From contig JACPQU010000002.1 in NCBI GenBank assembly GCA_016190305.1, positions 1 through 33,732 of the forward strand: DNA of 33,732 nt, in the 5' to 3' direction. The notes beneath the pieces were generated by a model, which was given only the letters and a program-made list of their open reading frames with translations, made no database searches and had not been told where the DNA came from. Positions within the stretch are counted from its first letter, which is position 1; each line of letters opens with the position of its first letter. A program made the translations under genes and the position numbers. The DNA comes from Bacillota bacterium. GTDB lineage: Bacteria > Bacillota > JACPQU01. Shown here one piece after another: positions 2,241 through 33,732 of this stretch.

Positions 2241-2307
2241 TTATCATTCCTCCTTCTGGAAACCCCCAAAAAATCACAATGACATTGTAACAGAAAGGGT
2301 CTTGATG

Positions 2308-5463: not shown

Positions 5464-5466
5464 GCG

Positions 5467-6429: not shown

Positions 6430-6605
6430 ATTTCACCACCTTAGATTATTCGCAGTCACCATCCGCAGCATGACCGAACACCGGCCAGATCTGGATCAAA
6501 ACAAACCCTTCTTGGAGAACAGACCGAAGGAGCCATTGGTGAAAGAGGGTGCAAACGGGCGGTGTTCAACAGCCGAAATTAGAACCTGGCGTCCGGCGCC
6601 TTGGA

Positions 6606-7435: not shown

Positions 7436-8662
7436 TTACGTGGCTGCCATGCCCGGCTTACCTTGGCTGAATCGTCCCTGGACTTGTACCTCGCTGATTT
7501 CCGGATCGGTCAAGTAGCATGCCGGATCGGAAGCCCAGAAATCCCCTGTGAGCGCCTCCGCCCTGGTCCGCAGGTTGCCGTTGCAAGCCCACAGCCACGC
7601 ACAGTCCCGGCAGCGTCCCGTCAATAAGAAACGGCGGTTTCGAAGGTTCCTGAGCAGGTTATTCGACTCATCGCTCCAGATCTCCCCGAAACTGCGTTCC
7701 CGCACACAGCCCACCGGGAACCTGCGAGAAAACTGATCGGGGTATAAGTACCCATTTGGCCCGATAGAGGCGATGGCGATCCCCGAGCGGTTTCCACCGT
7801 TCCTCGCCAGGAGAGCGGTGATGGCATCCACGCGCTCTTCGGCCAGTTCCCGGGCCCGCAAAAGGATGTACGGGCCGTCGGCATGGTTGTCCACAGTGAG
7901 GACCTCCCGGAGCGTCCCACCCGGTTCAGATTCCAGAACCCACCTGATAATCTGCTCCATGACCCCTCTGGTTTCCTCCGGGAGCAGCCGGGCGGAGTGG
8001 TGATCACGCCCCCTGCCGGAAGGGACCAAATGATAAAAGCAGACTCGGGATACCCCTTCCCCGTCCGCAATTTTGAAAATGTCCTCGATTTGTTCCTTAT
8101 TGCTGGCCTGAATCGTGAAACGAACTCCCACTTTGAGTCCCGCCTTCACGCAGTTTCCAAGGCCATGCAAGGTCTCCTGAAAAGCCCCTTGACGGCCGCG
8201 GAAACGGTCGTGGCTCTCCTCAGTCCCATCCAGGCTGATGCCGACATAGGAGACGCCCTCCTCCTTCAGCTTTTCAGCCATCTTTTCGCTTAACGTGGTT
8301 CCATTGGTCGAGACGACCACCCTGATCCCGCGCCTGACAGCCCGCGAGATCAACCGGGGCAGATCAGGCCGCAGGAGCGGCTCCCCCCCGGAAAAGAGAA
8401 CCACGGGTACCCGGAAGTCGGCCAGTTGATCAACCACCCGCAGGGCTTCCCGGGTGTCCAGTTCCCCCTCCGTGGCACGGGGGACGGCTTCGGCGTAGCA
8501 ATGAACACAGGCCAGGTTGCAGGCTTCGGTCGTGTTCCAGACCACCACCGGACCCCGTTCCCCTGTAGAACCGCCAAGATCCGTCACCGGGCCGGAAGCG
8601 TATCTCAGTGAATCCCCAAAACTTTCATCGCCGCGCAGCAGCTTGGTCATGGACAGCATCAC
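7436..8662 (-). CDS. ahbC: Radical SAM protein of alternative heme biosynthesis (AhbC / NirJ1-like)
   Basis: MTKLLRGDESFGDSLRY N-terminus typical of AhbC/NirJ1; radical SAM CNLACVHC; SGGEPLL; C-terminal Cys-rich GRCRDCAWLWACNGNLR. Confidence 0.85.
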   Translation of the reverse strand: MMLSMTKLLRGDESFGDSLRYASGPVTDLGGSTGERGPVVVWNTTEACNLACVHCYAEAVPRATEGELDTREALRVVDQLADFRVPVVLFSGGEPLLRPDLPRLISRAVRRGIRVVVSTNGTTLSEKMAEKLKEEGVSYVGISLDGTEESHDRFRGRQGAFQETLHGLGNCVKAGLKVGVRFTIQASNKEQIEDIFKIADGEGVSRVCFYHLVPSGRGRDHHSARLLPEETRGVMEQIIRWVLESEPGGTLREVLTVDNHADGPYILLRARELAEERVDAITALLARNGGNRSGIAIASIGPNGYLYPDQFSRRFPVGCVRERSFGEIWSDESNNLLRNLRNRRFLLTGRCRDCAWLWACNGNLRTRAEALTGDFWASDPACYLTDPEISEVQVQGRFSQGKPGMAAT

Positions 8663-9870
8663 CCTACCTCCTCCCGGCTTTGCGACTTAAGTTTTCCGAT
8701 CTCAGCCGGTTCGGGAAAGAAATGCATGCTGGTCTTCTTGAACTCCCTGGTGCTGTAGAGCATCACGTATGAGTCAAGTCCAGTGTGCTCCGCAAATCGG
8801 GATGCCGCCTCCTCGCAGATCTCCCGGCGTTTCCCGTGAATCATGGCGTACAGGTTGTAAGGAAAATCCGGAAAGGGGGCCCTTTCATAGCAATGACTGA
8901 CCTGGGGGAAAGTTGCCAGCAGCATCCCGGCCTCTTCGATTCGATCCGGCGGAACCTCCCAGACAGTCATGGCGTTGGCTGAGAATCCCGCCTGGCGGTG
9001 CCTGATCACGGCCGCCACTCTCCGAAGCCAGCCCTTCTCCTTGTAATCCTGAAGGGCGTCGATAAAATCGCGCCCTTCGATCCCAATGGTTTCCGCAAAA
9101 AGATGGTATGGCTCCGGGACAAGCGGGATGTCCCCCTGCATCGCGCCGATGATCTTCTGGTCGAGAGGCGTGAAAATCGGGATCGGACGCTGTGTCAGGG
9201 CGGCATCAACAGGCCTTTGTTCATGCGGAATCCCTGATTTTGGATCAGGACATGGTTGTGGATTACGCCCCGTTTTAGGAAGGAACCTCGGTTTTGGAAG
9301 CATCCCCGGTTCGGCTGGACGCGAAACAGACGGTCCCGGTCTCTGATCCGGTCCCACTTCCGAGACCAAGTCGAACTTGGCCTCCAGCTTGAACCGGCGC
9401 AAGGAGGGCACCGGGTAAAGATCTTCAACCCCGGTCTTTTCCTTGATCTCTTCCATCAGCTTTTCGAGGGCGGACTCCCCCCCCGCGGCGAGGGTGAACC
9501 AGAGGTTGTACTTATGAGTACGCTCGTAGTTATGGGTTATCCCGGGATAAGCATTCAGGAGGGAAGCCGTTTCCTCCAACCGTGCGGGATCGACCCGGGC
9601 GGCTGCCAGAACGGTGGTAAAACCCAGGGCCCTCGTGTCGAAGATCCCTCCTAGGCGCCGGATGAACCCTTTTTCTTTCAAGCAGCCGATCCTTGCCAGG
9701 ACATCGGCGGCTTCCAGTTCCAGAACCCCGGCAATTTCCTCGAAGGGCTGTCGTACCAGGGACAACCCGTTTTGAATAAGGTTCAACAAGCACTGATCCA
9801 CCGGTGCAACGGGATTTTGCACATCGGGATAGATGTTGAGCCGCTGCGGATGTTCACGGCTGGTAGACAC
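8659..9870 (-). CDS. Fused siroheme decarboxylase AhbA-AhbB (two Lrp/AsnC-like domains in one polypeptide)
   Basis: First domain PVDQCLLNLIQNGLSLVRQPFEEIAGVL...YPGITHNYERTHKYNLWFTL (AhbA-like); second domain TPLDQKIIGAMQGDIPLVPEPYHLFAETIG...FPQVSHCYERAPFPDFPYNLYAMIHG...YSTREFKKTSMHFF (AhbB-like). GTG start at 9870 preceded by GGAGGAGG and overlapping the ahbD end; the ORF to 10188 is overextended. Confidence 0.87.
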   Translation of the reverse strand: MSTSREHPQRLNIYPDVQNPVAPVDQCLLNLIQNGLSLVRQPFEEIAGVLELEAADVLARIGCLKEKGFIRRLGGIFDTRALGFTTVLAAARVDPARLEETASLLNAYPGITHNYERTHKYNLWFTLAAGGESALEKLMEEIKEKTGVEDLYPVPSLRRFKLEAKFDLVSEVGPDQRPGPSVSRPAEPGMLPKPRFLPKTGRNPQPCPDPKSGIPHEQRPVDAALTQRPIPIFTPLDQKIIGAMQGDIPLVPEPYHLFAETIGIEGRDFIDALQDYKEKGWLRRVAAVIRHRQAGFSANAMTVWEVPPDRIEEAGMLLATFPQVSHCYERAPFPDFPYNLYAMIHGKRREICEEAASRFAEHTGLDSYVMLYSTREFKKTSMHFFPEPAEIGKLKSQSREEVG

Positions 9871-10990
9871 AGAAAGGTTCCTCCTCCAGGTAGTCGCCGG
9901 TGACGGCAAAAGCCCTGGCCCTGCACCCCATGCACTTTCTCCGGTAGCCGCAACGGCCGCACTTGCCCTTGAGCAGCGAAGGATCTCTGAGTAAGGCCAG
10001 GAGTTCGGATTCACGATAGATCCTGCTGAAAGGTTGTTCGGTAATCTTTCCGGCCAGCAGCGGCAGATAACCGCAGGGGAAAACCTCGCCGATATGAGAG
10101 ACGAAGCAGAACCCATTCCCGGCCATACAACCCCGGGGGTCGTGGATGGATCCCGAGGCGGCTTCAGTTTCCTTGCGCTGATCGACAACTCGCGTGAAGT
10201 GAGGCCCGCAGGTGACCTTCACGGGGATGGGGGCTGAAACAGCCTGGTCACGGAGCCAGATCAGGGCTTCCTCGTATTCGGAGGGAGTCACCTCGTCCTC
10301 CACTCTCCCTCGCCCGGTCGGGACGAGCATGAACACGTCCCAGGCAAAAGCTTTCAGGCTGAGAGCCAGGTCGAGGATGAAAGGCAGGTCATCCAGGTTG
10401 GCCCTGGTGAGGGTCGTGTTCACCTGGCATGGGATCCCGCCGGCAACCGCTTTCTTGATACCCTTGACGGCGGCTTCGAAGGCCCCGGGCGCTTTCCGGA
10501 ACCGGTCGTGGCGCTCGGAGGTAGATCCGTCGAGACTGATGGAAATACCCCTGAGTCCGGCTTCACGCATCCGCCGGACGGTTTCTTCCTCCACCAGGGT
10601 CCCGTTGGGGGACATCACCGCCGGAAGGCCGCGCTGATTCGCATAGGCGGCGACCTCGAAGACATCTTTTCGGAGCAACGGCTCCCCGCCGCTGATGATC
10701 AAGAGGGGTTTGCAAAAAGATGCCAAATCATCGATAAAGCCCATTACCGCGCCGGTTTCGAGCTCGTCGGGATGAGCCTGGTGACAGGCCTCCGCCCGGC
10801 AGTGGACACAAGCCAGGTTGCAAGCGCGGGTCGACTCCCAAACCACGACGCGGGGCTTGAAGTCTTTCAGATCGGAAGTCTTCATCAGAGCCGGAGTCCC
10901 TATATCCGGAGTTTTTTTACCCGGAGTGTTCAGGCCCTGGTTCACCCAAGACCCCTCCCGGCCCGGGGATTCCCTTGCAATCACAATCAC
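9854..10990 (-). CDS. ahbD: Radical SAM heme synthase-like AhbD (NirJ2-like)
   Basis: VVWESTRACNLACVHCRAEA, ISGGEPLLRKDV, C-terminal GKCGRCGYRRKCMGCRARAFAVTGDYLEEEPFC. Confidence 0.85.
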   Translation of the reverse strand: MIVIARESPGREGSWVNQGLNTPGKKTPDIGTPALMKTSDLKDFKPRVVVWESTRACNLACVHCRAEACHQAHPDELETGAVMGFIDDLASFCKPLLIISGGEPLLRKDVFEVAAYANQRGLPAVMSPNGTLVEEETVRRMREAGLRGISISLDGSTSERHDRFRKAPGAFEAAVKGIKKAVAGGIPCQVNTTLTRANLDDLPFILDLALSLKAFAWDVFMLVPTGRGRVEDEVTPSEYEEALIWLRDQAVSAPIPVKVTCGPHFTRVVDQRKETEAASGSIHDPRGCMAGNGFCFVSHIGEVFPCGYLPLLAGKITEQPFSRIYRESELLALLRDPSLLKGKCGRCGYRRKCMGCRARAFAVTGDYLEEEPFCVYQP

Positions 10991-15031: not shown

Positions 15032-16315
15032 TCAGACCGCGAAGGCGTTAAGCAGGCCGAGCTCACCTATGCGTGCCTCCACGACCTTCTCGTCCACGGT
15101 GAACAGCCCCTTCTGGATGATGTGTTCCCAGAGTCCGCCCGTTCCCAGGAAGGAGTACTTCTTGTACTTGCCTTCCTCTGTCCGGATCTGCTCCTGGATC
15201 CAGGCCAGGCCCTCTCCCAGGGCGGTCTGCCGCGGCATCTCCAGCAAGGGCTCTCCGAGGGCCGCCCGGGCCGCGTTGTTGCCGGCGAGGAGTCCCGTCA
15301 CCTTGGCATCCATGATCCCGACCAGGTGCCCGGTTTTTTCACCGCCGCAGAAGAGGTTCGGGCGTTCGGCCACCTGGAGGCGGTTGTCCCTGGGGGCCTG
15401 GGCCAGAAAACGGATCGACTGGCCCCGGCCGGCCGCCAGGGGCTCGACGAAGTGGATGTTTTCGAAGTGAGGGATCCGTCGAAGAACCTCGTTGTTCATG
15501 TACGGCCTGGACAGGAACTTGATGGTCCCCACGTCCACGCAGACCAGGTAGTCCTCGTACGCCTCCTTGGAGAGCCACTGCTGAGTGCGGATCTTACGGA
15601 AGTGCTCGTAATCCGCCACGATCCCTTCCGGGGCCGGCACCAGGACACAGCCCTGGTTCTTCTCCATTTCAGCCAGGAACTCGGGACTCATGGACTCCTT
15701 GGCCGCCATGCACGCGTTGGTCATCGCCCCGAACTTTCCATCGCCGCGCTTGGCCATGGTTTCCGTTACCCCGCTCTTGGCCGTGATGCTGACTCTCGGA
15801 CCGTAGTTCGGGCAGCGGAGCGAGCAAAGGACGCAACCCATTCCGTACTTCTTGCACATCCCCTCCGGACCGGCCCCTCCGGTGGCATCCACGAAGGCAT
15901 CGGCCTCGATGACCTCTCCCCCGGCGAGCTTTACCGCCTCGATCCGGTCGCCCCGCATCCGCACATCCGAAACCGTATCCTCGAAGATCAGGTGGACGCC
16001 CATATCTTTCAACTTCTGCTTTACCGCCGTCTCCGCCTTGAAGTTGTCGTAGAGGTAGCCGTGTTTCTGGTGGGGCAGGTCGACCCGGTACTTGATCGCC
16101 GACTCCACCGCTTCGAAGATCTCGTTCCCGCCGAGAGCTTTGGCCTCCAGCATGATCGTGTAGCGACCGTTGTAGGCGTTGAGCCCCCCGTGGAAGCCCA
16201 CCCCCAGCAGGGTGTTAGTCCGCTCCACCAGGACCACCTCCACCCCCCGCTTGCGGGCGCCCACGGCCGCTCCACAACCTGCCCATCCGCCTCCGGCGAC
16301 GACGACGCGTTTCAA
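15032..16315 (-). CDS. FAD-dependent oxidoreductase with 4-Cys motif (paralog 1)
   Basis: MKRVVVAGGGWAGCGAAVGARKRGVEVVLVERT (Rossmann GxGxxG-type); DATGGAGPEGMCKKYGMGCVLCSLRCPNYGPR (C-x6-C-x2-C-x3-C); GidA/TrmFO-like NLFCGGEKTGHLVGIMDAKVTGLLAGNNAAR. TTG start. Confidence 0.85.
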   Translation of the reverse strand: MKRVVVAGGGWAGCGAAVGARKRGVEVVLVERTNTLLGVGFHGGLNAYNGRYTIMLEAKALGGNEIFEAVESAIKYRVDLPHQKHGYLYDNFKAETAVKQKLKDMGVHLIFEDTVSDVRMRGDRIEAVKLAGGEVIEADAFVDATGGAGPEGMCKKYGMGCVLCSLRCPNYGPRVSITAKSGVTETMAKRGDGKFGAMTNACMAAKESMSPEFLAEMEKNQGCVLVPAPEGIVADYEHFRKIRTQQWLSKEAYEDYLVCVDVGTIKFLSRPYMNNEVLRRIPHFENIHFVEPLAAGRGQSIRFLAQAPRDNRLQVAERPNLFCGGEKTGHLVGIMDAKVTGLLAGNNAARAALGEPLLEMPRQTALGEGLAWIQEQIRTEEGKYKKYSFLGTGGLWEHIIQKGLFTVDEKVVEARIGELGLLNAFAV

Positions 16316-16533: not shown

Positions 16534-17571
16534 TTACTTCGTTCCGATCTCCTTCAGCACTTCATCCAGCAGGCTCCGATCGAAAAGCTGATCAGGTTTG
16601 GTTCCCTCGGGAAGTTGTTTCCCATTGACAAAGAACTCAGTGGTCTTCGCCTGTCCCTCCGGCTCCAGACCTCCGTTGACCGGGTAAAGCTCGTACTTGC
16701 GGTCCAGTTCGTGAAGGGCCTTCAAGACATCCTCTTCGGCACCCGGCAGGAACTTGGGCGCCTGCTCGACATAGTACTCGGGGTCTACGGCCATCCTGCG
16801 GTGCACTTCCAGGATCGCCTTGATCACTGCCTTCACATCCTTGGCATTGCTCTTGAGATAGTCGGTCCTGGCGAAGAACGGCACGGCCTGGAGCCAGGGA
16901 AGATCATCGGCGAAGGAGACGAGGACGTTGAACTCCCCGGGTTTGGCCATGCTGATCCGCACGATGTCGCCGAATTCCAGGGGCGTGGCGTCGATCTCAC
17001 CCCGCAACATCGCGTCGGCCCTGTTCTCGGAGCCCTGGATCAGCAGAACTTGCGGCTTGATGTTGGGGGCTTTCTGGGCGAAGACGATGTTGGTCATGGC
17101 GGTCGCCTGGGCGCCCGGGCTGTGATGGGCCAGCTTCTTCCCGTCCAGGGCCTCAAGTGTCTTGGTGGCCCCGCGCCCGGCCAGCACCCAGTTGTTCCGG
17201 TGCTGGAGGACGAACGCTTTCATAGGGGCTCCCTGAACGATGGCGGCATAGAGGGTCTGCCCCCCGGTGTTCCCGATATGAGCATCTCCCCGGAGAACCG
17301 CCTCCACGCCCAGTTCGGTCTTGGCGAAGAACTTGGGCACCACCTCGTAACCCTGCGCCCGCATGAGCTCCCAGGCAAGCAGGGACGGCACATCGCCGTT
17401 ATCCGCCACCGATGGGTACGAGACGATGATCTTCTTCAACTGGCCTTGTTTACCGGTTGTCTGTTTCTTGCACGCGGTCAGACCGACTCCGACCAAGAGT
17501 AAACCAACGATGAGCAGGATGAGCAACCTGGAACCGGTGAAACCCGATCGCTGAGCGCTTCTGCCGAACAA
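16534..17571 (-). CDS. ABC transporter substrate-binding protein, NMT1/SsuA-like
   Basis: Lipoprotein LLLVGVGLTACKKQ; KIIVSYPSVADNGDVPSLLAWELMRAQGYEVVPKFFAKTELGVEAVLRGDAHIGNTGG. Confidence 0.85.
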   Translation of the reverse strand: MFGRSAQRSGFTGSRLLILLIVGLLLVGVGLTACKKQTTGKQGQLKKIIVSYPSVADNGDVPSLLAWELMRAQGYEVVPKFFAKTELGVEAVLRGDAHIGNTGGQTLYAAIVQGAPMKAFVLQHRNNWVLAGRGATKTLEALDGKKLAHHSPGAQATAMTNIVFAQKAPNIKPQVLLIQGSENRADAMLRGEIDATPLEFGDIVRISMAKPGEFNVLVSFADDLPWLQAVPFFARTDYLKSNAKDVKAVIKAILEVHRRMAVDPEYYVEQAPKFLPGAEEDVLKALHELDRKYELYPVNGGLEPEGQAKTTEFFVNGKQLPEGTKPDQLFDRSLLDEVLKEIGTK

Positions 17572-17712
17572 TCGCGATCACCCCTCAGCAGTTAGTTTCT
17601 TGCCAATCTCTTCAAGCCTGACGACGGCCGGTGATCACCACACCCCCTTTGAACCTGCTCCCTTTGCTCCCTCCAGATTCCGCTGTTCAAATTCGTTGAT
17701 CGGCGGCGCGGC

Positions 17713-18510
17713 TCACTTGTCCCACGGCGCCAGGCGGCGATGTCCGAACCTGATCAGAGATGTGAACACCAGGGCCACGACCGTGATCGTCGCGATGATG
17801 GCGAAGAGGTACTCGCCGTTGAAGGTGTTTCCGTAGTGCATGACCATCGCGCCCAGCCCGACGACGGTGATCAGCATCTCTCCGTTGACCATCCCCTTGA
17901 TCGCCCTGCCCACACCCATCCGGATTCCGGCCATGATCAAGGGAAGGGCTCCCAGAAGCCTGATCTTCCAGAAAAGCTGCCCCTCGCTGGCCCCGAATGA
18001 GACGGCCATTTCCACCAACGCGGGATCCAGGTATCGAATCCCCGTGAAGGTATTCACCACGATCACCCAGAAGGCGAAGAGAAAGGTGACGGCCACCCTG
18101 GTGGCGTCACCAAGGCCGAAGAGAATGATCAGCAACGGGATGAAGGCGAGCATGGGAGCTGACATCCCGAGGTTGATCCAGAAATCCAAGGCATCTTCAA
18201 TCAACTGGTAGCGGGCCATCAGGGCCCCCAGGAGGATTCCGACGAATACGGCCAGGAAAAATCCTGCTGCGAAATAGCCCAGGCTCACCACGATATGAGG
18301 TCCCAGCTTACCCGAAAGGATCAGGTCGAACCAGGCCTTGACCGCTCCGGAAACCGTTGGGATGATCACGGAGATCTTCAACCGGCCGAGGATCTCCCAA
18401 AGGAGCACCGCACCGCCAAGGGCCGCCAGACGCGGGCCGAAAACAGTGAGGAATCCCCGTTTCCGGGATCGCACCGCTCCCACGAGAGGACTTGCCAGAT
18501 CGCCGTTCAT
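17713..18510 (-). CDS. ABC transporter permease, SsuC/TauC-like
   Basis: BPD-type permease loop VEMAVSFGASEGQLFWKIRLLGALPLIMAGIRMGVGRAIKGMVNGEML; about six TM segments. Confidence 0.9.
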   Translation of the reverse strand: MNGDLASPLVGAVRSRKRGFLTVFGPRLAALGGAVLLWEILGRLKISVIIPTVSGAVKAWFDLILSGKLGPHIVVSLGYFAAGFFLAVFVGILLGALMARYQLIEDALDFWINLGMSAPMLAFIPLLIILFGLGDATRVAVTFLFAFWVIVVNTFTGIRYLDPALVEMAVSFGASEGQLFWKIRLLGALPLIMAGIRMGVGRAIKGMVNGEMLITVVGLGAMVMHYGNTFNGEYLFAIIATITVVALVFTSLIRFGHRRLAPWDK

Positions 18511-18522
18511 CAGTTCACCCCC

Positions 18523-19329
18523 TTAATCCACGACGTTGATCTGGGTCCAGGTGATCAATCTTTTCTCAACCCTTTTCATCAGGGCCATGACCACCGCCGC
18601 CAGTCCGATGACGGTGATCAGGGTGGCGAAGGTGTAATGAGGTTTGAAAAGACCTGCGTACTCCAGGAGAAGGTAACCCAGTCCAACGGCTGTGACCAGC
18701 ATTTCCCCGGCAATCATCCCCACAAACGCTCTGCCGATCCCCAGCCGGATTCCGGCGACAATCGCCGGCGAGGCCCCCGGCAGAAGCACCTTGCGGAACA
18801 ACTGTGGATTGCTGGCTCCGAAGGAACGGGCCATCAGGATCAGGTCGTTGCTCACGGTCTGCACCCCGGTGGTGACATTGACCATAATAATCACGACCGC
18901 GAAGAGAAAAACGATCACGATGCGGGAAGCGAGGTTCAAGCCCAGAACCGCGATCACCACCGGCGCAACGGCCATCATCGGCAGCACCAGGAGAATGCTG
19001 ATGTATACATCAAAAGCCTGTTCCAGCTTCCTGAACCATCCGAGGGCCAAGCCCACGGTGCAGCCAAGCAGGATGGCGATGAGCAGTCCGGAAATCAGCG
19101 AAATCCCGCTGATCAGCAAGGCCATCGGGAGCCGCCCGCTCGCCATCAGTTCCACCCAGGCGGAGGCGGTACGGGTAAAGGTCGGAATGCTGAGGCTGTC
19201 CGAGGCTCGGCCTACCATTTCCCAGATGAGGATAACGGCCGCGATCGACACCCCCCTTACGAGCCCGGGGCGACGCTTGGAACTCCGGCGTGACTTCCAT
19301 GTCGGATAGGTAAGCTCGGGTACAGGCAT
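18523..19329 (-). CDS. ABC transporter permease, SsuC/TauC-like (second, paralogous)
   Basis: LMARSFGASNPQLFRKVLLPGASPAIVAGIRLGIGRAFVGMIAGEML. Confidence 0.9.
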   Translation of the reverse strand: MPVPELTYPTWKSRRSSKRRPGLVRGVSIAAVILIWEMVGRASDSLSIPTFTRTASAWVELMASGRLPMALLISGISLISGLLIAILLGCTVGLALGWFRKLEQAFDVYISILLVLPMMAVAPVVIAVLGLNLASRIVIVFLFAVVIIMVNVTTGVQTVSNDLILMARSFGASNPQLFRKVLLPGASPAIVAGIRLGIGRAFVGMIAGEMLVTAVGLGYLLLEYAGLFKPHYTFATLITVIGLAAVVMALMKRVEKRLITWTQINVVD

Positions 19330-20000: not shown

Positions 20001-21284
20001 TTGAAGAGGGTCGTAGTCGTCGGCGGTGGCTGGGCAGGATGCGGAGCGTCTGTCGGAGCCCGCAAGCGGGGGGTGGAGGTGGTCCTGGTGGAGCGGACCA
20101 GCAACCTCCTGGGTGTCGGATTTCACGGGGGAATGCACGCATATAACGGCCGGCACACCATCATGCTCGAGGCCAAGGCCCTTGGCGGAACCGAGATCTT
20201 CGAGGCGGTGGAGTCGGCTTTCAAGTACCGGGTCGATCTCCCTCATCAGAAGTATGGATATCTTTATGATAACTTCAAGGCCGAGGGGGCCGTCCGGCGG
20301 ATGCTGGAGAGGATGGGGGTGCACGTCCACTTCGAACGGACCGTTACCGACGCCTTGATGCAAGGTGAAAGGATCCGGGCGGTCAAGCTCAACAACGGTG
20401 AAATCATCGAGGGGGATGCCTTCGTTGACGCCACGGGAGGCGCGGGCCCGGAACGCCTCTGCAAAGAATACGGCCGGGGATGTGTCCTTTGCATCCTCAG
20501 GTGCCCTCACTACGGCCCGAGGATCAGCCTGACCGCCAAGACCGGGGTGAAAGAAACGATGGCCCGGCGTGGAGATGGGAAATTCGGCGGGATGTCCAAC
20601 TCCTGCGCCGTGGATCGGGAGTCGGTCACCCCCGAGTTCCTGGAGGAGATGAAGAACAAAAACGGTTGTGTCCTGGTCCCGGCTCCCGAGGGCATCGCCG
20701 AGGATTACGGCTACTTCAAGAAGGTCCGCACCCAGCAGTACTATTCCCAGGACGAATACGAGACGTACCTGGTCACGGTGGATGTCGGGGCGATCAAGTT
20801 CGTCTCGCGCCCATATGTGAATTACCAGGTCCTCCGGGAAATCCCGGCTTTCCGTAACGCCCATTTCGTGGATCCGATCGTCGGCGGCCGCGGCCAGGCG
20901 ATCCGCTTCCTGGCCCAGGCTCCCAGGTTGAACACCCTTCAGGTCAAGGAACGCCCCAATCTTTTCTGCGCCGGGGAAAAGGCCGGATACCTGGTGGGGA
21001 TCATGGACGCCAAGGTTACCGGTCTCCTCGCCGGGAACAATGCGGCCCGGGTGGCCTTGGGAGACCCGGTGCTGGAACTGCCCCGGCGGACCGCCCTGGG
21101 AGAGGGTCTCGCCTGGATCAATGAGGAGATCCAAACCGAGGCGGGCCAGTACAAGAAATACTCATTCGTGGGCACGGGCGGGCTCTATCAGCACCTGATC
21201 GATCAAGGACTCTTCACCGTGGATCCCAAGGTGGTCGAGGAGCGGTTGGGAGAGCACGGTTTGCTGAACGCCTTCACGGCCTGA
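20001..21284 (+). CDS. FAD-dependent oxidoreductase with 4-Cys motif (paralog 2)
   Basis: MKRVVVVGGGWAGCGASVGARKRGVEVVLVERT; ERLCKEYGRGCVLCILRCPHYGPR; same length (427 aa) as paralog 1; TTG start. Confidence 0.85.
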   Translation: MKRVVVVGGGWAGCGASVGARKRGVEVVLVERTSNLLGVGFHGGMHAYNGRHTIMLEAKALGGTEIFEAVESAFKYRVDLPHQKYGYLYDNFKAEGAVRRMLERMGVHVHFERTVTDALMQGERIRAVKLNNGEIIEGDAFVDATGGAGPERLCKEYGRGCVLCILRCPHYGPRISLTAKTGVKETMARRGDGKFGGMSNSCAVDRESVTPEFLEEMKNKNGCVLVPAPEGIAEDYGYFKKVRTQQYYSQDEYETYLVTVDVGAIKFVSRPYVNYQVLREIPAFRNAHFVDPIVGGRGQAIRFLAQAPRLNTLQVKERPNLFCAGEKAGYLVGIMDAKVTGLLAGNNAARVALGDPVLELPRRTALGEGLAWINEEIQTEAGQYKKYSFVGTGGLYQHLIDQGLFTVDPKVVEERLGEHGLLNAFTA

Positions 21285-22500: not shown

Positions 22501-23811
22501 TCAGGATGCCTTATTAAAGATCCCCGCCAAGCCCAGTTCAGCGATCCGGCCGGCCACGACCTCCCGCTCGGTGGTATAAAGCCCCTTTTCCTTGAGGCGG
22601 TCCCAAACCCCTCCTGTTCCTTGCATGGAGTACTTGTGATACCAGCCTTCCTCCGTCTGCAGGCGCTCGTTGATCCACGCCAGGGATTCCCCTACCGCGG
22701 TCCGGCGGGGGAGTTCGATCGGGGGTATGGAGAGGGCGTGACGGGCGGCGTTGTGTCCGGCCAGCAGGCCGCTGACGGTCACCGTATCCACGCCGACCAG
22801 GAGGAGCTTCTCTCCGGCGCAGAAAAGATTGGGCACCCCGGTGACCTGAAGCCGGTTATCGTGAGGGGCCACGGCCAGGAAACGCACTCCGTTGCCCCTG
22901 GTTCCCACCAGCGGGTCGAAGAAAGCCGCCCGCTCGAAACCCTTGACCCGGCGCAAGGCGTCCAGGTTAATCCAGGGACGGGACATGACCTTGACCATCC
23001 CGGTGTCCACGCAGACGAGGTTATCCTCGTACTCAGGTCGGGATAGGTACTGCTGGGTGCGGATCTTGCGGAAATACTCCCGATCCCCGAGTGCATCCGG
23101 CGCCGGGATCAGGGCGACGCCGCCGCCCGCTTTGATCCGATCCAAGATCTCAGGGGAGAGAGAACCCGGGATCAAGACACAGGCGTTGCTCATGCTTCCG
23201 ATCCCGCCCCCTCTTTGCCGGGCCTGTCCCTCCTTCACCCCTGCTTTCTCCGTGATGCTAACCCTGGGACCGTAAACCGGGCAGCGCAAAAGACAAAGGG
23301 TGCAACCCCGCCCATGCTTGCGGCACATGGCCTCCGGGCCTGCTCCGCCCGTGGCGTCCACGAAAGCGTCGGCCTCCAGCACCTCGTTCCGCCCCAAGCG
23401 GATGGCCGCCAGCTTTCCATCGCCCCAGATGACGTTTGTGGCGCGGGTGTTGAACCGCACCTCCACGTTCAACCTGTCAAGGAGGCGGCGCATGTTTTGT
23501 TCGGCCTTAAAAAGGTCGTAGAGAATCGAACCTTCCAGGTGAGGAATGGGGACGTTATGATACTTGACCGCGTTGCGCGATACCTCGAAGACCTCTCCCG
23601 CACCCATCTCCTCGCATTCCATGACCCCGACCCGCTCACCGTTGATGTCGCAGATACCGGCCATGTTTCCGACCCCGAGAAGGTAATCGGACTTCTCCAC
23701 CAGAACGGTCTCCACACCCATCTTGGCAGCGGTGACGGCGGCGGCACAACCGCTGAAGCCGCCCCCCACGATCACGACCCTTGGCAACGATCCGACCCCC
23801 TCCTGCCCCAT
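22501..23811 (-). CDS. FAD-dependent oxidoreductase with 4-Cys motif (paralog 3)
   Basis: RVVIVGGGFSGCAAAVTAAKMGVETVLVEKSDYLLGVGN; EAMCRKHGRGCTLCLLRCPVYGPRV; NLFCAGEKLLLVGVDTVTVSGLLAGHNAAR; start at MGQEGVGSLP. Confidence 0.85.
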   Translation of the reverse strand: MGQEGVGSLPRVVIVGGGFSGCAAAVTAAKMGVETVLVEKSDYLLGVGNMAGICDINGERVGVMECEEMGAGEVFEVSRNAVKYHNVPIPHLEGSILYDLFKAEQNMRRLLDRLNVEVRFNTRATNVIWGDGKLAAIRLGRNEVLEADAFVDATGGAGPEAMCRKHGRGCTLCLLRCPVYGPRVSITEKAGVKEGQARQRGGGIGSMSNACVLIPGSLSPEILDRIKAGGGVALIPAPDALGDREYFRKIRTQQYLSRPEYEDNLVCVDTGMVKVMSRPWINLDALRRVKGFERAAFFDPLVGTRGNGVRFLAVAPHDNRLQVTGVPNLFCAGEKLLLVGVDTVTVSGLLAGHNAARHALSIPPIELPRRTAVGESLAWINERLQTEEGWYHKYSMQGTGGVWDRLKEKGLYTTEREVVAGRIAELGLAGIFNKAS

Positions 23812-23842
23812 TTTGGAGCATCTATTTTTCTGGATATCAGCC

Positions 23843-24547
23843 TTATAACCAGAGACTTGTCTCCTCCCGGCCGGCAAGGTTCTTCCCGCAAAGCCGGAGC
23901 AGGTACCAGATCAGGGCCTGGTTGCTGCTGACCACCGGCTTTCCCAGATCACGCTCGAGATCACCGATCATCCGGATCACCGGTAGGTTGGTGCAACTGA
24001 TGAACAACCCGTCCGTTCCGGCAGGCAGTGCATGCATAGCGGCCCGCCGGACCAAAGCAGGATCCATCTCCGCCAGGGTGGGAACCCCTTCCGGTTTTGG
24101 ACAACGCCTCAACTCAACGACCTCAAGCTCCTTTTCCACCAGGAATGATCGCAGGCAGTTATTGGATTCTTCACTGTAGGGCGACACGACCACGACCCTG
24201 GCCATTCCCAGGTGACGCATCGCTTGAATCACCGCCTCCGCGGTGGTCGCCACCGGGACATCGACCAGTCCGCCCATGACCCCGCGGATCTTGTCATCGT
24301 AAGAAGACCCGCCGATGAAGCTGCCCGCCGTGCAGCCGAAGCCGATTGCATCAACGCGGGCCAGGGAAAGCTCCAGGCAAACCCTGGGAATGTCGTCGAA
24401 CATCCCTCGGAGATTAGACGGATCGCCGGTGGAAGCGCTTTCCGGATCGCCGGGCATTCTGGAAAAGTGGGCCGTGACCCATTCCGGAAGCAGGGCATAC
24501 GCATCCGGTTCGAGGGTGGTGTTGCGTGCGGGAACCGCAATCCCCAA
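23843..24547 (-). CDS. Maleate cis-trans isomerase / Asp-Glu racemase superfamily protein
   Basis: IAVPARNTTLEPDAYALLPEWVTAHFSRMP; GFGCTAGSF and FISCTNLPVI (two catalytic-type Cys). Confidence 0.82.
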   Translation of the reverse strand: MGIAVPARNTTLEPDAYALLPEWVTAHFSRMPGDPESASTGDPSNLRGMFDDIPRVCLELSLARVDAIGFGCTAGSFIGGSSYDDKIRGVMGGLVDVPVATTAEAVIQAMRHLGMARVVVVSPYSEESNNCLRSFLVEKELEVVELRRCPKPEGVPTLAEMDPALVRRAAMHALPAGTDGLFISCTNLPVIRMIGDLERDLGKPVVSSNQALIWYLLRLCGKNLAGREETSLWL

Positions 24548-25868: not shown

Positions 25869-26591
25869 TTATTGCACCACGAGCGTCGCTTCCATGTTGG
25901 AGTGAAGATTGCACTCGTAACTGTAATTACCGGCCTGGGTGAAGGTGCGGGTGTACGCCTGGCCCCTGGACAGCAAAGGACTGCGCCACCCGGAACCTTC
26001 GACGTCATGCTGGAACGAATCGAGGTTGATCCAAGTCACCCGTGCTCCGGCCGGAATAATTCCAGCCGAACCGAACTTGAGGTTATTGATCAAGATCACC
26101 CGGCCGATCCACGGGGCCTTGACGGTGACGGTTCGGGTCTGGCCGTTCCAGCCCACCGTGGCCCCCATTTGTTCGCTGACGAAACGGACCGGGACCAGCG
26201 TCCGGTTATTGGCATCGATAAAGGGTGCGGCGTCCAACGCAACCGTGGCGCCGTCAACCTTTGCGGTTTGCTGCCCGATCCAGAGTTCAATCCGCCGGTC
26301 TCCGGTCAGGTAAGTCACCTTCCGTTCGGTGCTGTTCCAGGTCACGTAGGCCCCCAGTTCCTCCCCGATAAAACGAAGGGGCACATAGGTTCGGCCGGTG
26401 CCGGACAGGATGGTCGGGGCGGTATCCAACGCCATATTTTTACCGTTGACAACCGCCGATGGGTTATCGATCCGGAGGGTGACCGTCGTAGAGACCGCCG
26501 CCTCGGCAGCAGCGGAAACAGCCATGGATACGATCAAGGTCGAGACCGCAATCAAGAAAAGGATGCGCACGCCTGCAGATAAACTCTTCAC
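25869..26591 (-). CDS. Secreted copper-amine-oxidase-N-type (stalk) domain plus cupredoxin domain protein
   Basis: Signal peptide; VVNGKNMALDTAPTILSGTGRTYVPLRFIGEELGAYVTWNSTERKVTYLTGDRRIELWIGQQTAKVDGATVALDAAPFIDANNRTLVPVRFVSEQMGATVGWN; C-terminal FQHDVEGSGW...YSYECNLHSNMEATLVV. GTG start at 26591 with GGAGCGAGG. Confidence 0.85.
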   Translation of the reverse strand: MKSLSAGVRILFLIAVSTLIVSMAVSAAAEAAVSTTVTLRIDNPSAVVNGKNMALDTAPTILSGTGRTYVPLRFIGEELGAYVTWNSTERKVTYLTGDRRIELWIGQQTAKVDGATVALDAAPFIDANNRTLVPVRFVSEQMGATVGWNGQTRTVTVKAPWIGRVILINNLKFGSAGIIPAGARVTWINLDSFQHDVEGSGWRSPLLSRGQAYTRTFTQAGNYSYECNLHSNMEATLVVQ

Positions 26592-26694
26592 ATTCCTCGC
26601 TCCTTTCACTCTGCTTTTTGTCAGGCCGTCCGGCACTTGCCGCGATCCTGGCGCCACATCCCCCATTTCTGCAGTCAAGGTTCAAAATAGAATG

Positions 26695-27439: not shown

Positions 27440-28840
27440 TTACTTGATCCCAACGACGGTGCCGGCCAAAGCCTTCAGGTCCGGCACCTTTTCAACCCCC
27501 GGAACCCGTGCGATTTCCGGAAAAGGTTCCTTGAAGGGCCTGGTAGCGTCGATAGCCATGCTGTCGTTGATCCCTTCCTGGGCGGAAGGATCCAGGGCCG
27601 CCAGGCAGTTATTCTCGATGATGATCACGTCCCGGCCGGGCCGGGAGCGGGTTGCTACCGCCCAGAGTACCTGGGTTTCATCGAAGACGTCCACATCCTC
27701 GTCACAAAGCACCACCATCTTGGGCTTCAGGTTGCTTCCCAGGGCGGAGGTCAGGATGCACCGACCTTGGTTCCGGTACCTGATCCCGGCCGATACGTAC
27801 GCGGTATAACGCGCGCATCCGGAAAGCGGGAGGTGAACTGCGCGCACCTCCGGGAACTGCTGCTTCAGGTCATAGTACAGCGAAGCCTCGAACGGTAACC
27901 CGCACAGGGCATGGTTTTCGGTGACGGGCGGGCCGGTGAGCCCGGCTTGCCACAAGGCGTCACGGCGCATGGTCACCGCCGTCACCTCCATTACCGGAGA
28001 CATGCTGCCGGGGCCATAGTAGCCGGAGAACTCTCCGAAAGGTCCCTCGGATTCCCGGTACCCCGGCAGGAGCCGTCCCTCGAAGACGATCTCGGCCCGG
28101 GCGGGAACCATCAGGTCCACAGTCCGAGCCTTGACCACTTCAACCGGTTCCCCGCGCAGGCCGCCCGCAATCCCCAACTCGTCGACCCCGTAGGCCGCCC
28201 GTACCTGGGAGGCCAGGAGCAGGGACGGTTCCAGACCCTGGATCACGGCTATTTCCAGGGCCTGTCCCCTGGATTCGGCCTTCTCAAACTGGATCTTGAT
28301 GTGCTTGTTGGCTGAAGACCAGAAGAACCCCAGGCGGTTTTTCCCCTTGACCTGCATCCGGTGGATGGCGGCGTTGGGAACTCCCGTGTCAGGATCCCTG
28401 GCGACCTGAACGGCCATCGTGATATAGGGCCCGCCATCCTGGGCGCAGTATGTGGGGGCGGGGAAGCGGGCCAGATCCACCTCCTCCCCTACGAGAACGA
28501 TCTCCTGGCAGGGGGCTTCGTCAATAGATACTCCCACAGGGGGAAGGGGGTTTCGGATCCCGTCCAGGAAGCGGTCCAGGGCGTTCTCCCTGGTGAAGCC
28601 CAAGGCTTCCACGACCCGATCCCGGGAATTGACCACACCGCCGACCACCGGCATCCGGTGTCCCTTGACATTCGGAAAGAGGAGGGCCGGGCCGGCGGTG
28701 TCACACGTTTTTCGAAGGTACGCGGCAATCTCGAAGACCGGGTCGATCTCGTCCTGGATGGTCAGAAGTTGACCTCTGGATTCCAGGTAAGCCAGGTAAT
28801 GACGTAAATCTCGAAATCCCACCTGCCCATCCCCTCCCAC
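27440..28840 (-). CDS. UbiD-family (prenylated-FMN-dependent) decarboxylase
   Basis: DLRHYLAYLESRGQLLTIQDEIDP, EGPFGEFSGYYGP, HALCGLPFEASLYYDLKQQFPEV, SRPGRDVIIIENNCLAALDPSA. Start may be GTG at 28822. Confidence 0.92.
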   Translation of the reverse strand: MGGDGQVGFRDLRHYLAYLESRGQLLTIQDEIDPVFEIAAYLRKTCDTAGPALLFPNVKGHRMPVVGGVVNSRDRVVEALGFTRENALDRFLDGIRNPLPPVGVSIDEAPCQEIVLVGEEVDLARFPAPTYCAQDGGPYITMAVQVARDPDTGVPNAAIHRMQVKGKNRLGFFWSSANKHIKIQFEKAESRGQALEIAVIQGLEPSLLLASQVRAAYGVDELGIAGGLRGEPVEVVKARTVDLMVPARAEIVFEGRLLPGYRESEGPFGEFSGYYGPGSMSPVMEVTAVTMRRDALWQAGLTGPPVTENHALCGLPFEASLYYDLKQQFPEVRAVHLPLSGCARYTAYVSAGIRYRNQGRCILTSALGSNLKPKMVVLCDEDVDVFDETQVLWAVATRSRPGRDVIIIENNCLAALDPSAQEGINDSMAIDATRPFKEPFPEIARVPGVEKVPDLKALAGTVVGIK

Positions 28841-28844
28841 CTTT

Positions 28845-31436
28845 TCAACGTCCCACCTTGGCCACCCTGACCTTCACGCAGGAATCGAGAGCCCCCGAAA
28901 GCGTATCCACCCGACGGACATCCTGGTGGATGAGGGTGTTGAAGTTGATCCCCTTCCCCTTCGCCACCGGCTGGCCCGCGGCCCAGTGACCCTGGGAGCC
29001 CATCACCGCCAGCACCTCCGGATGGATGCCTTCGGTCGTCGAGAGCCTTCCATGCACCCGGTATCCCTGGGGTGTCTCCAGGGTTACTTCGTCTCCGTCC
29101 CCAAGCCCCTTGTTCCTCGCGGTCCAGGGGTTGATCAGGATGTCCCTGGCCCCGGGGATCCGATCCGTCAGGTCGCCCAGCCAGGGGTTCTCGTAGGTAT
29201 AGGAATGAGCATGGTACGGCACCTTGTAGTTGATCACCCAGAGGTCGTAGCCGTCCCTGAGGTTGAAATCAGGACAGGGCTTCCAATCGGGCAGAGGATC
29301 ATAATCCGAAGTGTCCCACTCGAATCCCACCGTCTCCGCCACGCGGGCCACGTCCTCCCCCGCTCTCTTGAAAAACTCGTAGTACAGATGCAGCTTTCCG
29401 TCGGTGAACGGCATGGGGAAGACCTCTTCCGGCTTTTTAGGGATGGTGTGGAGCCCGGCCTCCTTGAAGTGAGTGAGCCCCAGTTCTCCACCCAGTTTCG
29501 ACTTGAAGCGGCGGTCGCTGACCTCCTCCACGCTGTAACGACGGTCCTTCTCCAACTGGTGTGGTTCCTTGAGCTGCAGCAGGGTGTTCAAGGCCTGGTT
29601 ATAGCGGTCGAGGATGCCCAGCCGGCCGGCCAACTCGCTGATGACCTCGGGCCAGTGCCGCACCCCTGGGGGCGGATCCACCACCGGCTGCCTGACGGCA
29701 TAGTACCAGTCGCTGGCATTGGCCATCACCCAGGAACGCGGGGCGTTGGGCATAGCGTCGGTCCGCTCCAGGAAATGGGTATCCGGAAAAACCACATCCG
29801 CCATCTCCACGCTGGCGTCAATGGTGAAGGCGATGGAGGCGATGAAACCGATGCGCGAGAAGGCCTCCGCCATCTGGGCAGGATTGGAGGTCTGCTGCAT
29901 GTAGTTGTTCCGCCAGTGCAGCATCGCTCCGATTTCATATGGAACCCGGTACTTTTCACCGTGGAGCAGCACTTCCGGGACAATCGACCTGGCGTAAACC
30001 GCCACCGGAAAGATCTCCACCAGTTCGGCGGTCTGGGGAGCGCGCACTTTCCGGGGGGGATAGGGCAGCAAGGAGTGGGCCGAATTCAACCCCGAGGTGG
30101 GTACGAGCATCCCGTCGGGCCCCGACTCCGGCTTCCAGGTTGGACCGGCCGCGCTGACCCCCAGGTGGCCGCCGGGCACGTTGACCGCGCCGATGATCGT
30201 GTTCAGGAGTTGAATGGCCAGTCCGGTGTGCAGGGCGTGCTTGTGGGCGATCGCACCGCGGCTCCAGTCGGCGTGAGCCGGACGAAAAGGCAGTTCGACT
30301 CCGTCGATGGTGATGGTGGAGCCTACCCGGGCGGCCGCTCCATACTCCCTGGCAATCACCCGAACCTGCTCCGCCGGGATGGTGGTGATCTCCTCCACCC
30401 GTTCGGGAGTGTAGGCGCGGACGTGCTCCCGCAGAAGGGAAAATGCCGGTTTGCACGGGGTCCCATGGACCTCGAAGGTTCCCTCCAGCGCCACGTCCCC
30501 TACGAGGGTATCGAAGGTGCGGGCTGCGCCTGCCGCCGGATCCCAGACCAGCGGCTTCCCGCTCTCCGGATCCCGGGCATAATTTCCCGCTGCTGTAATC
30601 AGGTAAGGACCATTCGTCTGATGCTTGATGAATCGGGCATCGTAGATCCCCAGTTCGTTCAACAACTGGTTCACCAGGCCCAGGGCCAGGGCGGCATCCG
30701 TCCCCGGCCTGATCGGGACCCACCGGTTGGCCTTGGAGGCCGCGTAGGAGCACATGGGGTCGATGGCCACGACCTTAAGTCCCTGGCGGCGGCGCTGGGC
30801 CATCTTGCGGGTGATCCCCAGGGCGTTGAGGTGAATGGGCACCCCCTGCTGGCTTCCGAAGAGCAAAAGGTACTCGCAATTGTCCACATCCGACTCGCAA
30901 TACCAGGCCCCGTGATGCAGCCAGAGCACCGAGTGAAGTCCGTTGCCGCAGAAAACCCCGGCAGGCCCGGCCGTGGTGTTGGGGGTGCCGAAGGCGGTGG
31001 CGAATGCTTCACCGAAGGTGCTCATCAGGTGGGCATCCCAGGCGGAAATCAACAAACCCCGCGGATCCTTGTCTTTCACCTTCCGAAAGGCATCGGCGGT
31101 GAGTTCCATGGCCTCTTCCCAGGTGATCTCCACCCATCCCGGGTCCACCCCGATCCCCTTCCGGGGATTGGTCCGCTTGAGCGGGGTCCTGATCCGGTAT
31201 GGATTATAAAGGCTCATGATCCCGGCGTTGCCCTTCGCGCAGACCGCGCCGAAGTTGTGCGGGCTGGCCGGGTTCCCCTCGATCTTGACCACCACGCCGT
31301 TCACGCGGTGGACCAGGACATGGCAGGCGTTGTAGCACATGTAGCAGGTGGTCGGAATCCAGGTGTGATCCGTCTTCTCTTCAGACGCGCTTCCGGATCG
31401 CGCAGGCTCGGGCGCGGTCAAAGGGACCCCCTCCAT
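28845..31436 (-). CDS. Molybdopterin (bis-PGD) oxidoreductase catalytic subunit with [4Fe-4S] motif
   Basis: TTCYMCYNACHVLVHRVNGVVVKIEGNPASPHNFGAVCAKGNAG (C-x2-C-x3-C-x27-C); VVAIDPMCSYAASKANRWVPIRPGTDAALALGLVNQL; NTIIGAVNVPGGHLG. Start may be TTG at 31421. Confidence 0.9.
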   Translation of the reverse strand: MEGVPLTAPEPARSGSASEEKTDHTWIPTTCYMCYNACHVLVHRVNGVVVKIEGNPASPHNFGAVCAKGNAGIMSLYNPYRIRTPLKRTNPRKGIGVDPGWVEITWEEAMELTADAFRKVKDKDPRGLLISAWDAHLMSTFGEAFATAFGTPNTTAGPAGVFCGNGLHSVLWLHHGAWYCESDVDNCEYLLLFGSQQGVPIHLNALGITRKMAQRRRQGLKVVAIDPMCSYAASKANRWVPIRPGTDAALALGLVNQLLNELGIYDARFIKHQTNGPYLITAAGNYARDPESGKPLVWDPAAGAARTFDTLVGDVALEGTFEVHGTPCKPAFSLLREHVRAYTPERVEEITTIPAEQVRVIAREYGAAARVGSTITIDGVELPFRPAHADWSRGAIAHKHALHTGLAIQLLNTIIGAVNVPGGHLGVSAAGPTWKPESGPDGMLVPTSGLNSAHSLLPYPPRKVRAPQTAELVEIFPVAVYARSIVPEVLLHGEKYRVPYEIGAMLHWRNNYMQQTSNPAQMAEAFSRIGFIASIAFTIDASVEMADVVFPDTHFLERTDAMPNAPRSWVMANASDWYYAVRQPVVDPPPGVRHWPEVISELAGRLGILDRYNQALNTLLQLKEPHQLEKDRRYSVEEVSDRRFKSKLGGELGLTHFKEAGLHTIPKKPEEVFPMPFTDGKLHLYYEFFKRAGEDVARVAETVGFEWDTSDYDPLPDWKPCPDFNLRDGYDLWVINYKVPYHAHSYTYENPWLGDLTDRIPGARDILINPWTARNKGLGDGDEVTLETPQGYRVHGRLSTTEGIHPEVLAVMGSQGHWAAGQPVAKGKGINFNTLIHQDVRRVDTLSGALDSCVKVRVAKVGR

Positions 31437-31843: not shown

Positions 31844-32902
31844 CTACTTTCTCAGATCCCACGGGAAGAGAGGCACGTAGTCGCTGGGCGGCTCGGTGAA
31901 GTCGCCGTCATGGCGCACTTCCAGAACGTTGTGCTCCGCCAGGAATTCCTGGAGGGGAATCTGGGTGATGGCGATGTGCTGGGTGGTCGAATCCTTCTGG
32001 GGATTCCAGTGCTGGTGCCAGACGGCGGTGGGCACGAAGATGGTATCGCCCTCCTGCCACTCGTAGCGCACTCCGTCCATCAGGCTGTATCCCTTTCCCT
32101 GCAGGACGTAGATGATGGCTTCGTCATGCTTGTGGGTCTCGGTATGAGACTCGGGCGGCAACTGCTGCAGGTGCATCCGGACCACCTGGTTGGCGAAACC
32201 GTGGCCCTGGTCGGCGATCCCGACGATGAAGTCACCCTTGTGGACCGAACGCTCCAGCTGGACGTCGCGCCCGCGCATGATCGTCCGGGCATCCCGGATA
32301 TGCTGCTCCTGCCCTGCCACCCTTTCCCGCCGGCGCAACTCGACGATGCTCATCCACTTCTCTCCGCCGACCATCTCGATGGGCTTTTGCTCGTAGCCGA
32401 ACGGATGGGGCGGCACGTAGTCCTCCGGCGGGTCGCTGTAGGTATCCCCCTTGGGGACCACGGGCATAGGCTGGACGTAGTTGATCAGCGGCTCGTTGGT
32501 GGCCCAAAGGAAGTTGGCCGGCTCCTCGTCGCTGATGTTGAAGTGCTGGTTCCAGTAACCCGGCTTGATGTGCAGGGTGTCGCCGCGCTCCCACTCCACC
32601 CTCTCATCGTTGATGATGGAGTACCCGTGGCCGTTCAGGACATGCATCAGGGCCTCGGGGTTTCGCTGGGCCTCACCGTGTCCCCCGGGGGGAACGTGAA
32701 AGATGTCCAGGGACAAAATCCGGTTATCGAAGCCGATGTGACGGCGGATCACCGGAGCCACCATGAGCCCGCGGGTGGAGGAGAGCTCGAACCGGAGGTC
32801 CTCCCTTTTCGAGATTAACCTTAGATTGCGCAGGCGTTCCTTTTCGATCATCTCGTCCGCTCGCCGGGCCTTGTCGATACTTGACTGCCATTTCTCGTCC
32901 AT
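31844..32902 (-). CDS. Bicupin (two-cupin-domain) protein
   Basis: Cupin 1: NPEALMHVLNGHGYSIINDERVEWERGDTLHIKPGYWNQHFN; cupin 2: ESHTETHKHDEAIIYVLQGKGYSLMDGVRYEWQEGDTIFVPTAVWHQHWN. ATG at 32902 chosen; 32920 is possible. Confidence 0.87.
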   Translation of the reverse strand: MDEKWQSSIDKARRADEMIEKERLRNLRLISKREDLRFELSSTRGLMVAPVIRRHIGFDNRILSLDIFHVPPGGHGEAQRNPEALMHVLNGHGYSIINDERVEWERGDTLHIKPGYWNQHFNISDEEPANFLWATNEPLINYVQPMPVVPKGDTYSDPPEDYVPPHPFGYEQKPIEMVGGEKWMSIVELRRRERVAGQEQHIRDARTIMRGRDVQLERSVHKGDFIVGIADQGHGFANQVVRMHLQQLPPESHTETHKHDEAIIYVLQGKGYSLMDGVRYEWQEGDTIFVPTAVWHQHWNPQKDSTTQHIAITQIPLQEFLAEHNVLEVRHDGDFTEPPSDYVPLFPWDLRK

Positions 32903-32939: not shown

Positions 32940-33215
32940 CTACTTGCCGGTCGACCCTCCCTTGATCAAGGGCACCAGGGTGATCAGGTCACCATCGTGC
33001 AGCACCCGGTCGACTTCGGCCAGCTTGCCGTTGACCCGAAGCTCCATCCTGGCCGTGCTCAGGGCTGTTTGCTGCAACAACTGTCCGACGGTGGTCCCTT
33101 GGGCCACCGATTTCCGGAGCACCCCTTTGCCCAGTTGCACCAGGCGGACGCTCAGGGTTTGCCCTTGAACCTCTGCCTGATCCGAGCGCTGACCGGTACC
33201 GCTACCCTGCTTCAC
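32940..33215 (-). CDS. ThiS/MoaD-like ubiquitin-fold (beta-grasp) protein with a post-GG tail
   Basis: LSVRLVQLGKGVLRKSVAQGTTVGQLLQQT...MELRVNGKLAEVDRVLHDGDLITLVPLIKGGSTGK; GTG start at 33215 preceded by AGGAGGAGG; the longer ORF to 33260 is less likely. Confidence 0.82.
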   Translation of the reverse strand: MKQGSGTGQRSDQAEVQGQTLSVRLVQLGKGVLRKSVAQGTTVGQLLQQTALSTARMELRVNGKLAEVDRVLHDGDLITLVPLIKGGSTGK

Positions 33216-33283
33216 GTCAGTCCTCCTCCTGAGTCGCTTGATCCGAGTTGAGTTATCCAAGTTCCAAGTTGTCGAAGCAGCGT

Positions 33284-33732
33284 TTACTTGCTCTTCTGGG
33301 GCAAGCTTCTATTCACGGTTTCCACCCCGGCTTGCAGCAACCCCCTGACCTCTTTCTCCAGGCCCCCATGCCATTCCCGGTAGGAACGGGCTTCCTCCGG
33401 GAAAAGGATCTCCACCTCCACCTCGTCGCACCGCCGAGCCGGGTCATATTGGTCATAACGGGCCAGGAGGTCGCCCCACTTGTTCATGACCACCGAAAAC
33501 ATCCCGTTGTTTTGGAAGAGTTCAATCGTCTCGACGTCAGTATCGCTCCATAACACCGGCTCCAGACCGTGGCTGTGCCACCAGAACCTGATCTCCTCCG
33601 GGTTTTCACCTTTCTCCACGAGTTCCACCAGGAACCCGGCCACGGCCTCCGGGCTGAGGAAGGTGCTGTAGCGGCCGTACTCCTGGGGAAAAAGGAAGAT
33701 CTCCTCCAGGATCCACTTGCCCTGGTGATCAA
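33284..33732 (-). CDS. JAB/MPN (JAMM) metalloprotease-like protein, 5' end beyond window
   Basis: Extending the ORF-track frame to the window edge gives DHQGKWILEEIFLFPQEYGRYSTFLSPEAVAGFLVELVEKGENPEEIRFWWHSHGLEPVLWSDTDVETIELF...: H-x-H-x7-S-x2-D JAMM motif plus an upstream Glu (ILEEIFLF). Confidence 0.85.
   Translation of the reverse strand, partial: DHQGKWILEEIFLFPQEYGRYSTFLSPEAVAGFLVELVEKGENPEEIRFWWHSHGLEPVLWSDTDVETIELFQNNGMFSVVMNKWGDLLARYDQYDPARRCDEVEVEILFPEEARSYREWHGGLEKEVRGLLQAGVETVNRSLPQKSK

Follow-up and report, generated by a model that had tools for sequence, protein, structure and literature searches.

A gene for a JAB/MPN-type protease directly beside one for a ubiquitin-like protein (Ubl) raises the question of whether the Ubl serves as a sulfur carrier or as a protein modifier. 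The preliminary description of the 33,732-nucleotide stretch of DNA analysed here (the window), at whose end the pair is located, had allowed for both roles. The presence of an E2-like protein just upstream of the JAB protein argues for protein conjugation rather than for a sulfur carrier of the QbsD/QbsE type, which favours the modifier role and makes the other less likely. The cassette is likely a compact bacterial ubiquitin-like protein-conjugation module.

The E2-JAB-Ubl cassette and its contig junction

Read as open reading frames across the window and contig C85 of the same genome, the cassette has the order E2-JAB-Ubl(GG-STGK), followed by a bicupin gene. The window carries the C-terminal 148 of 185 amino acids of a JAB/MPN+ (JAMM) metalloprotease at 33284-33732 on the minus strand, assigned by frame, motif, homologues and predicted model; the frame is open from 33284 to the window end. 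The Ubl, a beta-grasp protein of the ThiS family with 91 amino acids, is encoded on the same strand (32940-33215), and its start lies 68 bp past the JAB stop, which confirms the direct pairing described before. Its reading frame begins with GTG, shortly downstream of a strong Shine-Dalgarno sequence (AGGAGGAGG), and matches Pfam ThiS (5.8e-07; 30.4 bits against a cut-off of 22.5). It is the only member of the cassette that Pfam recognises.

When the genome of the window was searched with the JAB protein, the right end of C85 proved to match the window's last 121 bases exactly (33612-33732). The truncated JAB frame runs on upstream into this contig (locus L003), which encodes the first 37 amino acids from a start at C85:4753, giving a full-length protein of 185 amino acids. 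The E2-like gene (191 amino acids; C85:4199-4774, which would be window 34395-33820) overlaps the JAB start by 22 bases. We infer this join from a draft assembly; the continuity of the frame, together with homologues that have the same E2-to-JAB order across the junction, makes it credible. A break of the JAB frame upstream, which the preliminary description had named as a reason to abandon its reading, is thus not seen.

The HxHx7SxxD motif noted earlier is present in the minus-strand JAB frame as WHSHGLEPVLWSDTD. The catalytic glutamate reported with it also exists (E29, in TEISGLG; P-x-E-I-S-G-L-G), but is encoded on C85, outside the window. Homologues from other phyla and a virus cover most of the protein (35% identity, E 5e-32), and E29, H89, H91, S99 and D102 are invariant between them and the JAB here. 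The JAMM glutamate and HxHx7SxxD are kept by all JABs of the family, and this conservation across phyla and a virus indicates more than a chance resemblance. An AlphaFold model, made like that of the E2 from a Chloroflexi homologue (L029) and with the window's partial JAB as one row of its alignment, has a pLDDT of 84.8, and its best Foldseek matches are RPN11, the COP9 signalosome, the Caldiarchaeum Rpn11-Ub complex and Pyrococcus JAMM1 (E down to 8e-09). The predicted fold is therefore confidently Rpn11-like MPN, and a lack of that fold, also named earlier as a possible objection, is not borne out. Together, residues and predicted fold support an MPN+/JAMM enzyme. A peptide-pattern scan of genome contigs with the JAB alone gave no match, as the protein is too divergent. 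Weak matches in the window's own phylum were judged to be chance, and a DUF4026_C match (E 0.009-0.02) was too weak to use.

The Ubl ends in LVPLIKGGSTGK, with the diglycine at 86-87 followed by the tail STGK, as first described. All 17 family Ubls have the diglycine. Seven end exactly there, nine carry a tail of one to six residues (STGK in the window, CA twice, AR, NR, RR, R twice and LPSSRR) and one runs off its contig. The preliminary description would have been weakened if homologous Ubls ended at GG and STGK were an artefact. The former is true of the seven, which means that not every member needs tail maturation; the latter is countered by tails in eight other intact Ubls, and the aligned sequences indicate that the tail is a recurring, fast-changing feature and not an error. 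An early impression that tail and JAB always occur together had to be dropped. Tails are found in four of six Ubls with an adjacent JAB (a count that includes the L096 Ubl, cut off by its contig end) and in 6 of 11 without, and so do not track the protease. For instance, the complete cassettes of L025 and L121 include a JAB, yet their Ubls already end at GG, while several tailed Ubls have no JAB beside them. Trimming is thus not the only job of JAB in this family, which probably also deconjugates the Ubl, as CsRpn11 does. The latter, a JAMM enzyme, removes nine residues after Gly-Gly, and activation by E1 depends on this removal (PMC6043591, PMC5654768).

The E2-like protein and the missing E1

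A coiled coil forms the N-terminal part of the E2-like protein, whose motif DHPHVQNGLPCLGN is similar to HPN...CL, the active site of E2 enzymes. DHPH...CLG is kept in 28 of 28 sequences, the first of which were found by the HPH motif itself and the rest by profile. Pfam E2 models match neither this protein nor its relatives. The model of the Chloroflexi homologue (pLDDT 89.5) places E2 enzymes (UbcH7, UbcH8, Ube2W) in nearly all top PDB positions with a probability up to 0.92, although by E-value (best 0.078; TM 0.39-0.48) they fall short of significance. In a profile alignment, HPH...CLG aligns with HPN...CL of UBE2L3 (P 0.0045), while the hhalign probability against UBE2L3/UBE2D2 is only 7.8%; both comparison sequences were entered by hand. 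The E2 profile found nothing among PDB sequences, so the argument for the fold rests on the predicted model. No viral predicted structure matched that model with E < 0.001. A plasmid match to the E2 was rejected, since it overlaps, in antisense, a gene annotated as hypothetical beside an IS3 transposase.

A DNA pattern for the E2 motif found three viral and 14 genome loci. The pattern demands V in HPHV, and members with HPHI outside the Methylomirabilota would escape it. L035 and L041 were chance matches with no E2-like protein. The coiled-coil family, the window's member included, is present on a 152-kb viral contig, in one Chloroflexi MAG and in several Methylomirabilota MAGs. Profile searches found it in 20 of 95 Methylomirabilota genomes and, among 399 genomes of the window's own phylum, in this one only. 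In the E2 tree, the window's member clusters with those from Chloroflexi and viruses, but on long branches, which make this placement uncertain.

Gene order varies across the family. The virus (L025) has Ubl-E2-JAB-E1 and four Methylomirabilota loci (L096, L097, L118, L121) have E2-JAB-E1-Ubl, while others have E2-E1-Ubl (L092, L094, L120, L122-L124, L126-L128, L130, L132) or E2-JAB alone (L089, L090, L091, L093, L125, L129, L131, with L108 and L119 at contig ends). No neighbour is universal across the 28 loci, and synteny is confined to close relatives. Six genomes (G404, G405, G443, G444, G445, G446) have two E2 paralogues, the first adjoining a JAB gene and the second an E1 gene; their second locus is E2-E1, with the Ubl included where the contig allows.

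Two further arrangements were seen in passing. In L025 (virus IMGVR 3300018080_004265, 1219-6504), the four genes are followed by two small genes and then a ClpA/ClpB-type AAA+ unfoldase (Pfam AAA_2 2.4e-63, ClpB_D2-small, Clp_N), possibly forming a tag-and-unfold unit. A second E2 subfamily combines the motif HPHV..G..CFG/CLG with a C-terminal half that is rich in Cys and zinc-finger-like, and may be an E2-E3 fusion. Its loci (L036, 537-3384 of Heimdallarchaeota CP070695.1; L019, L028, L034, L037, L039, L017) belong to Phycisphaerae, one Asgard archaeon and viruses, and most adjoin a JAB and/or a ThiF E1. Its members L019 and L036 have no Pfam match.

The E1 that stands beside the same E2, JAB and Ubl families in relatives is a protein of about 220 amino acids with no rhodanese domain, which keeps the nucleotide motif and, in six of six aligned sequences, the CT cysteine. 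Looking beyond position 33732 for E1-, E2- or rhodanese-like genes, as proposed earlier, yielded the E2-like gene on C85, but no ThiF/E1 or rhodanese gene was recognised. Neither Pfam nor the family profile finds a ThiF-type E1 in the window's genome, and the bin has no ThiF-family gene whatever. The absence of an E1 from the genome, an outcome that was to count against the preliminary reading, therefore holds for the available bin, which is only 79% complete. The missing E1 is the main gap in the conjugation reading.

This gap could also mean that the locus is an E1-less fragment, in which the JAB and an E2-like scaffold act on conjugates made by a general MoeB-like E1 or by another element, for instance a phage. 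Besides the lack of an E1 in the bin, this would fit the full set carried by a virus and the Chloroflexi case, where E2-JAB has neither an E1 nor a Ubl in its vicinity and the E1-like genes that were scored in the genome are of other ThiF types. However, the cassette here retains its Ubl gene, and E2-JAB loci of Methylomirabilota often coexist with a second E2-E1-Ubl locus. The six two-locus genomes show that it is normal for E1 to lie apart from an E2-JAB locus, and the locus lacking here may belong to the unassembled 21%. A fragment is thus very unlikely.

In the conjugation module that we favour, the JAB would cut the Ubl precursor (GG-STGK) after the diglycine, and a ThiF-type E1 encoded elsewhere would adenylate the exposed C-terminus. 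The invariant cysteine of the E2-like protein (DHPHVQNGLPC) would then carry the Ubl, to be passed to an amine of a target, such as that of a lysine; the choice of partner might fall to the N-terminal coiled coil of the E2-like protein. The same JAB could take the Ubl off again. We infer these enzymatic steps, the unlinked E1 and a protein as the target, possibly the bicupin, the Mo-oxidoreductase or the UbiD enzyme described below.

Metabolic neighbours

The bicupin gene (31844-32902, minus strand) begins 37 bases past the Ubl stop. About 400 bp beyond it lies the gene for a solitary Mo-bisPGD oxidoreductase with a 4Fe4S motif (28845-31436, minus strand), and 4 bp past that the gene for a UbiD-family decarboxylase (27440-28840, minus strand). 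On the other side of the cassette, upstream of the E2-like gene, C85 carries S15/CocE hydrolase, amidohydrolase and isochorismatase genes. A bicupin with 44% identity adjoins E2-JAB in the Chloroflexi MAG (L089), where related ABC transporter genes are also nearby. The bicupin is thus a possible functional neighbour of the cassette, judged by gene position; proof of a functional link would take more than two loci. The system might, for example, exert reversible control over a catabolic pathway by tagging the bicupin, the Mo-enzyme or the UbiD enzyme, and be co-inherited with the bicupin, a tentative idea that we regard as rather unlikely. In Haloferax, SAMP1 tags molybdopterin synthase (PMC4443979).

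The Mo-enzyme also bears on the sulfur-carrier alternative. As in QbsCDE or PdtFGH, the JAB would trim the Ubl, an E1 would make its C-terminal thiocarboxylate, and a small molecule or the molybdenum cofactor would receive the sulfur from it. This would suit a ThiS-family Ubl and a Mo-enzyme 1.5 kb away, and sulfur-transfer operons with JAB, ThiS/MoaD and E1 proteins are known (Iyer 2006, PMC1779556). It is at odds with the constant partner, an E2-like protein with an invariant Cys, and with short family E1s that lack rhodanese. Among the neighbours in the window, on C85 and at related loci, neither a rhodanese nor any other sulfur-transfer partner was recognised; next to the cassette this extends to cysteine synthase, AMP ligase and moa genes, and a comparison of neighbours across loci, with short ORFs annotated non-exhaustively, gave no shared partner. 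A sulfur carrier is accordingly unlikely.

The recurrence of the E2-JAB-bicupin neighbourhood in another phylum also argues against a module for anti-phage defence, or for counter-defence, that would resemble Bil/6A and have its metabolic neighbours by accident. Cassettes of E1, E2, JAB and Ubl do serve bacterial immunity (BilABCD; PMC11354881), and a related one is present in a viral contig. Nevertheless, PADLOC has no model that fits the JAB or the Ubl of the window; for the E2 it gives nothing beyond weak coiled-coil matches, and its E1-E2 models fit the related E1 only in part. Nor did the flanks of the cassette show a nucleotidyltransferase, a metallo-beta-lactamase or any further defence gene. 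A defence role is quite unlikely.

Elsewhere in the window, genes for three related FAD-dependent oxidoreductases (15032-16315, 20001-21284, 22501-23877) lie around genes for an ABC transporter of the taurine/nitrate type (16534-19329) and for an arylmalonate-decarboxylase/racemase-like protein (23843-24547). The protein encoded at 25869-26678 fuses copper amine oxidase N-terminal-like domains to a plastocyanin-like domain. At 7436-10990, two radical SAM/SPASM proteins flank a putative fused siroheme decarboxylase (AhbAB-type), a group that may represent an alternative heme pathway.

Significance and known systems

The locus adds a compact bacterial E2/JAB/Ubl family, in which the E2 is invisible to Pfam and the JAB barely visible. 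The family spans several uncultured phyla and a virus, and its Ubls range from ready-made GG ends to tailed precursors, so that the time at which JAMM maturation of ubiquitin precursors arose can be tested across close relatives. Small sets such as L097, with E2, JAB, E1 and Ubl in one operon, are suited to reconstitution. No description of this E2/JAB/Ubl family was found in the open-access literature searched; subscription papers may list it. The preliminary statement that the gene combination matched no nameable system still applies to the metabolic neighbours, but the core is of the E1/E2/JAB/Ubl kind, with bacterial modules known since Iyer 2006 (PMC1779556) and Bil operons reviewed in PMC11354881.

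QbsD/QbsE (quinolobactin) and PdtGH likewise place a JAMM protein beside a ThiS/MoaD-like one, but have no E2, and their neighbours are genes for a rhodanese-E1 and an AMP ligase (PMC1779556). The sporadic class 6 (6a-6e) and class 4 operons of Iyer, Burroughs and Aravind bring JAB, E1-like, E2-like and Ubl proteins together (PMC1779556). Here, in contrast, all are separate single-domain proteins. As in 6a, a conserved His and a conserved Cys are present in the E2, yet it is unfused to an E1, and neither the companion helical protein of 6d nor the rhodanese and sulfur genes of class 4 were seen.

BilABCD, an ISG15-like conjugation operon, follows the same four-part Ubl/E2/JAMM/E1 logic in bacteria, and its JAMM exposes the reactive glycine (PMC11354881). 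Its Ubl has two domains, whereas the one here is a single domain of 91 amino acids. The E2 motif is HPH...CLG here and CEHH in Bil, and the JAB and Ubl have no PADLOC match.

Compared with the ubiquitin operon of Caldiarchaeum subterraneum (CsUb, E1, E2, RING, CsRpn11), the cassette has no RING gene, its E1 is unlinked and not found in the genome, and its E2 has an N-terminal coiled coil and is unmatched by Pfam E2 models. Both systems nevertheless have a tailed pro-Ubl, an Rpn11-like JAMM and an E2-type enzyme or, here, an E2-like protein, and crystal structures of CsRpn11 with CsUb are among the matches of the JAB model.
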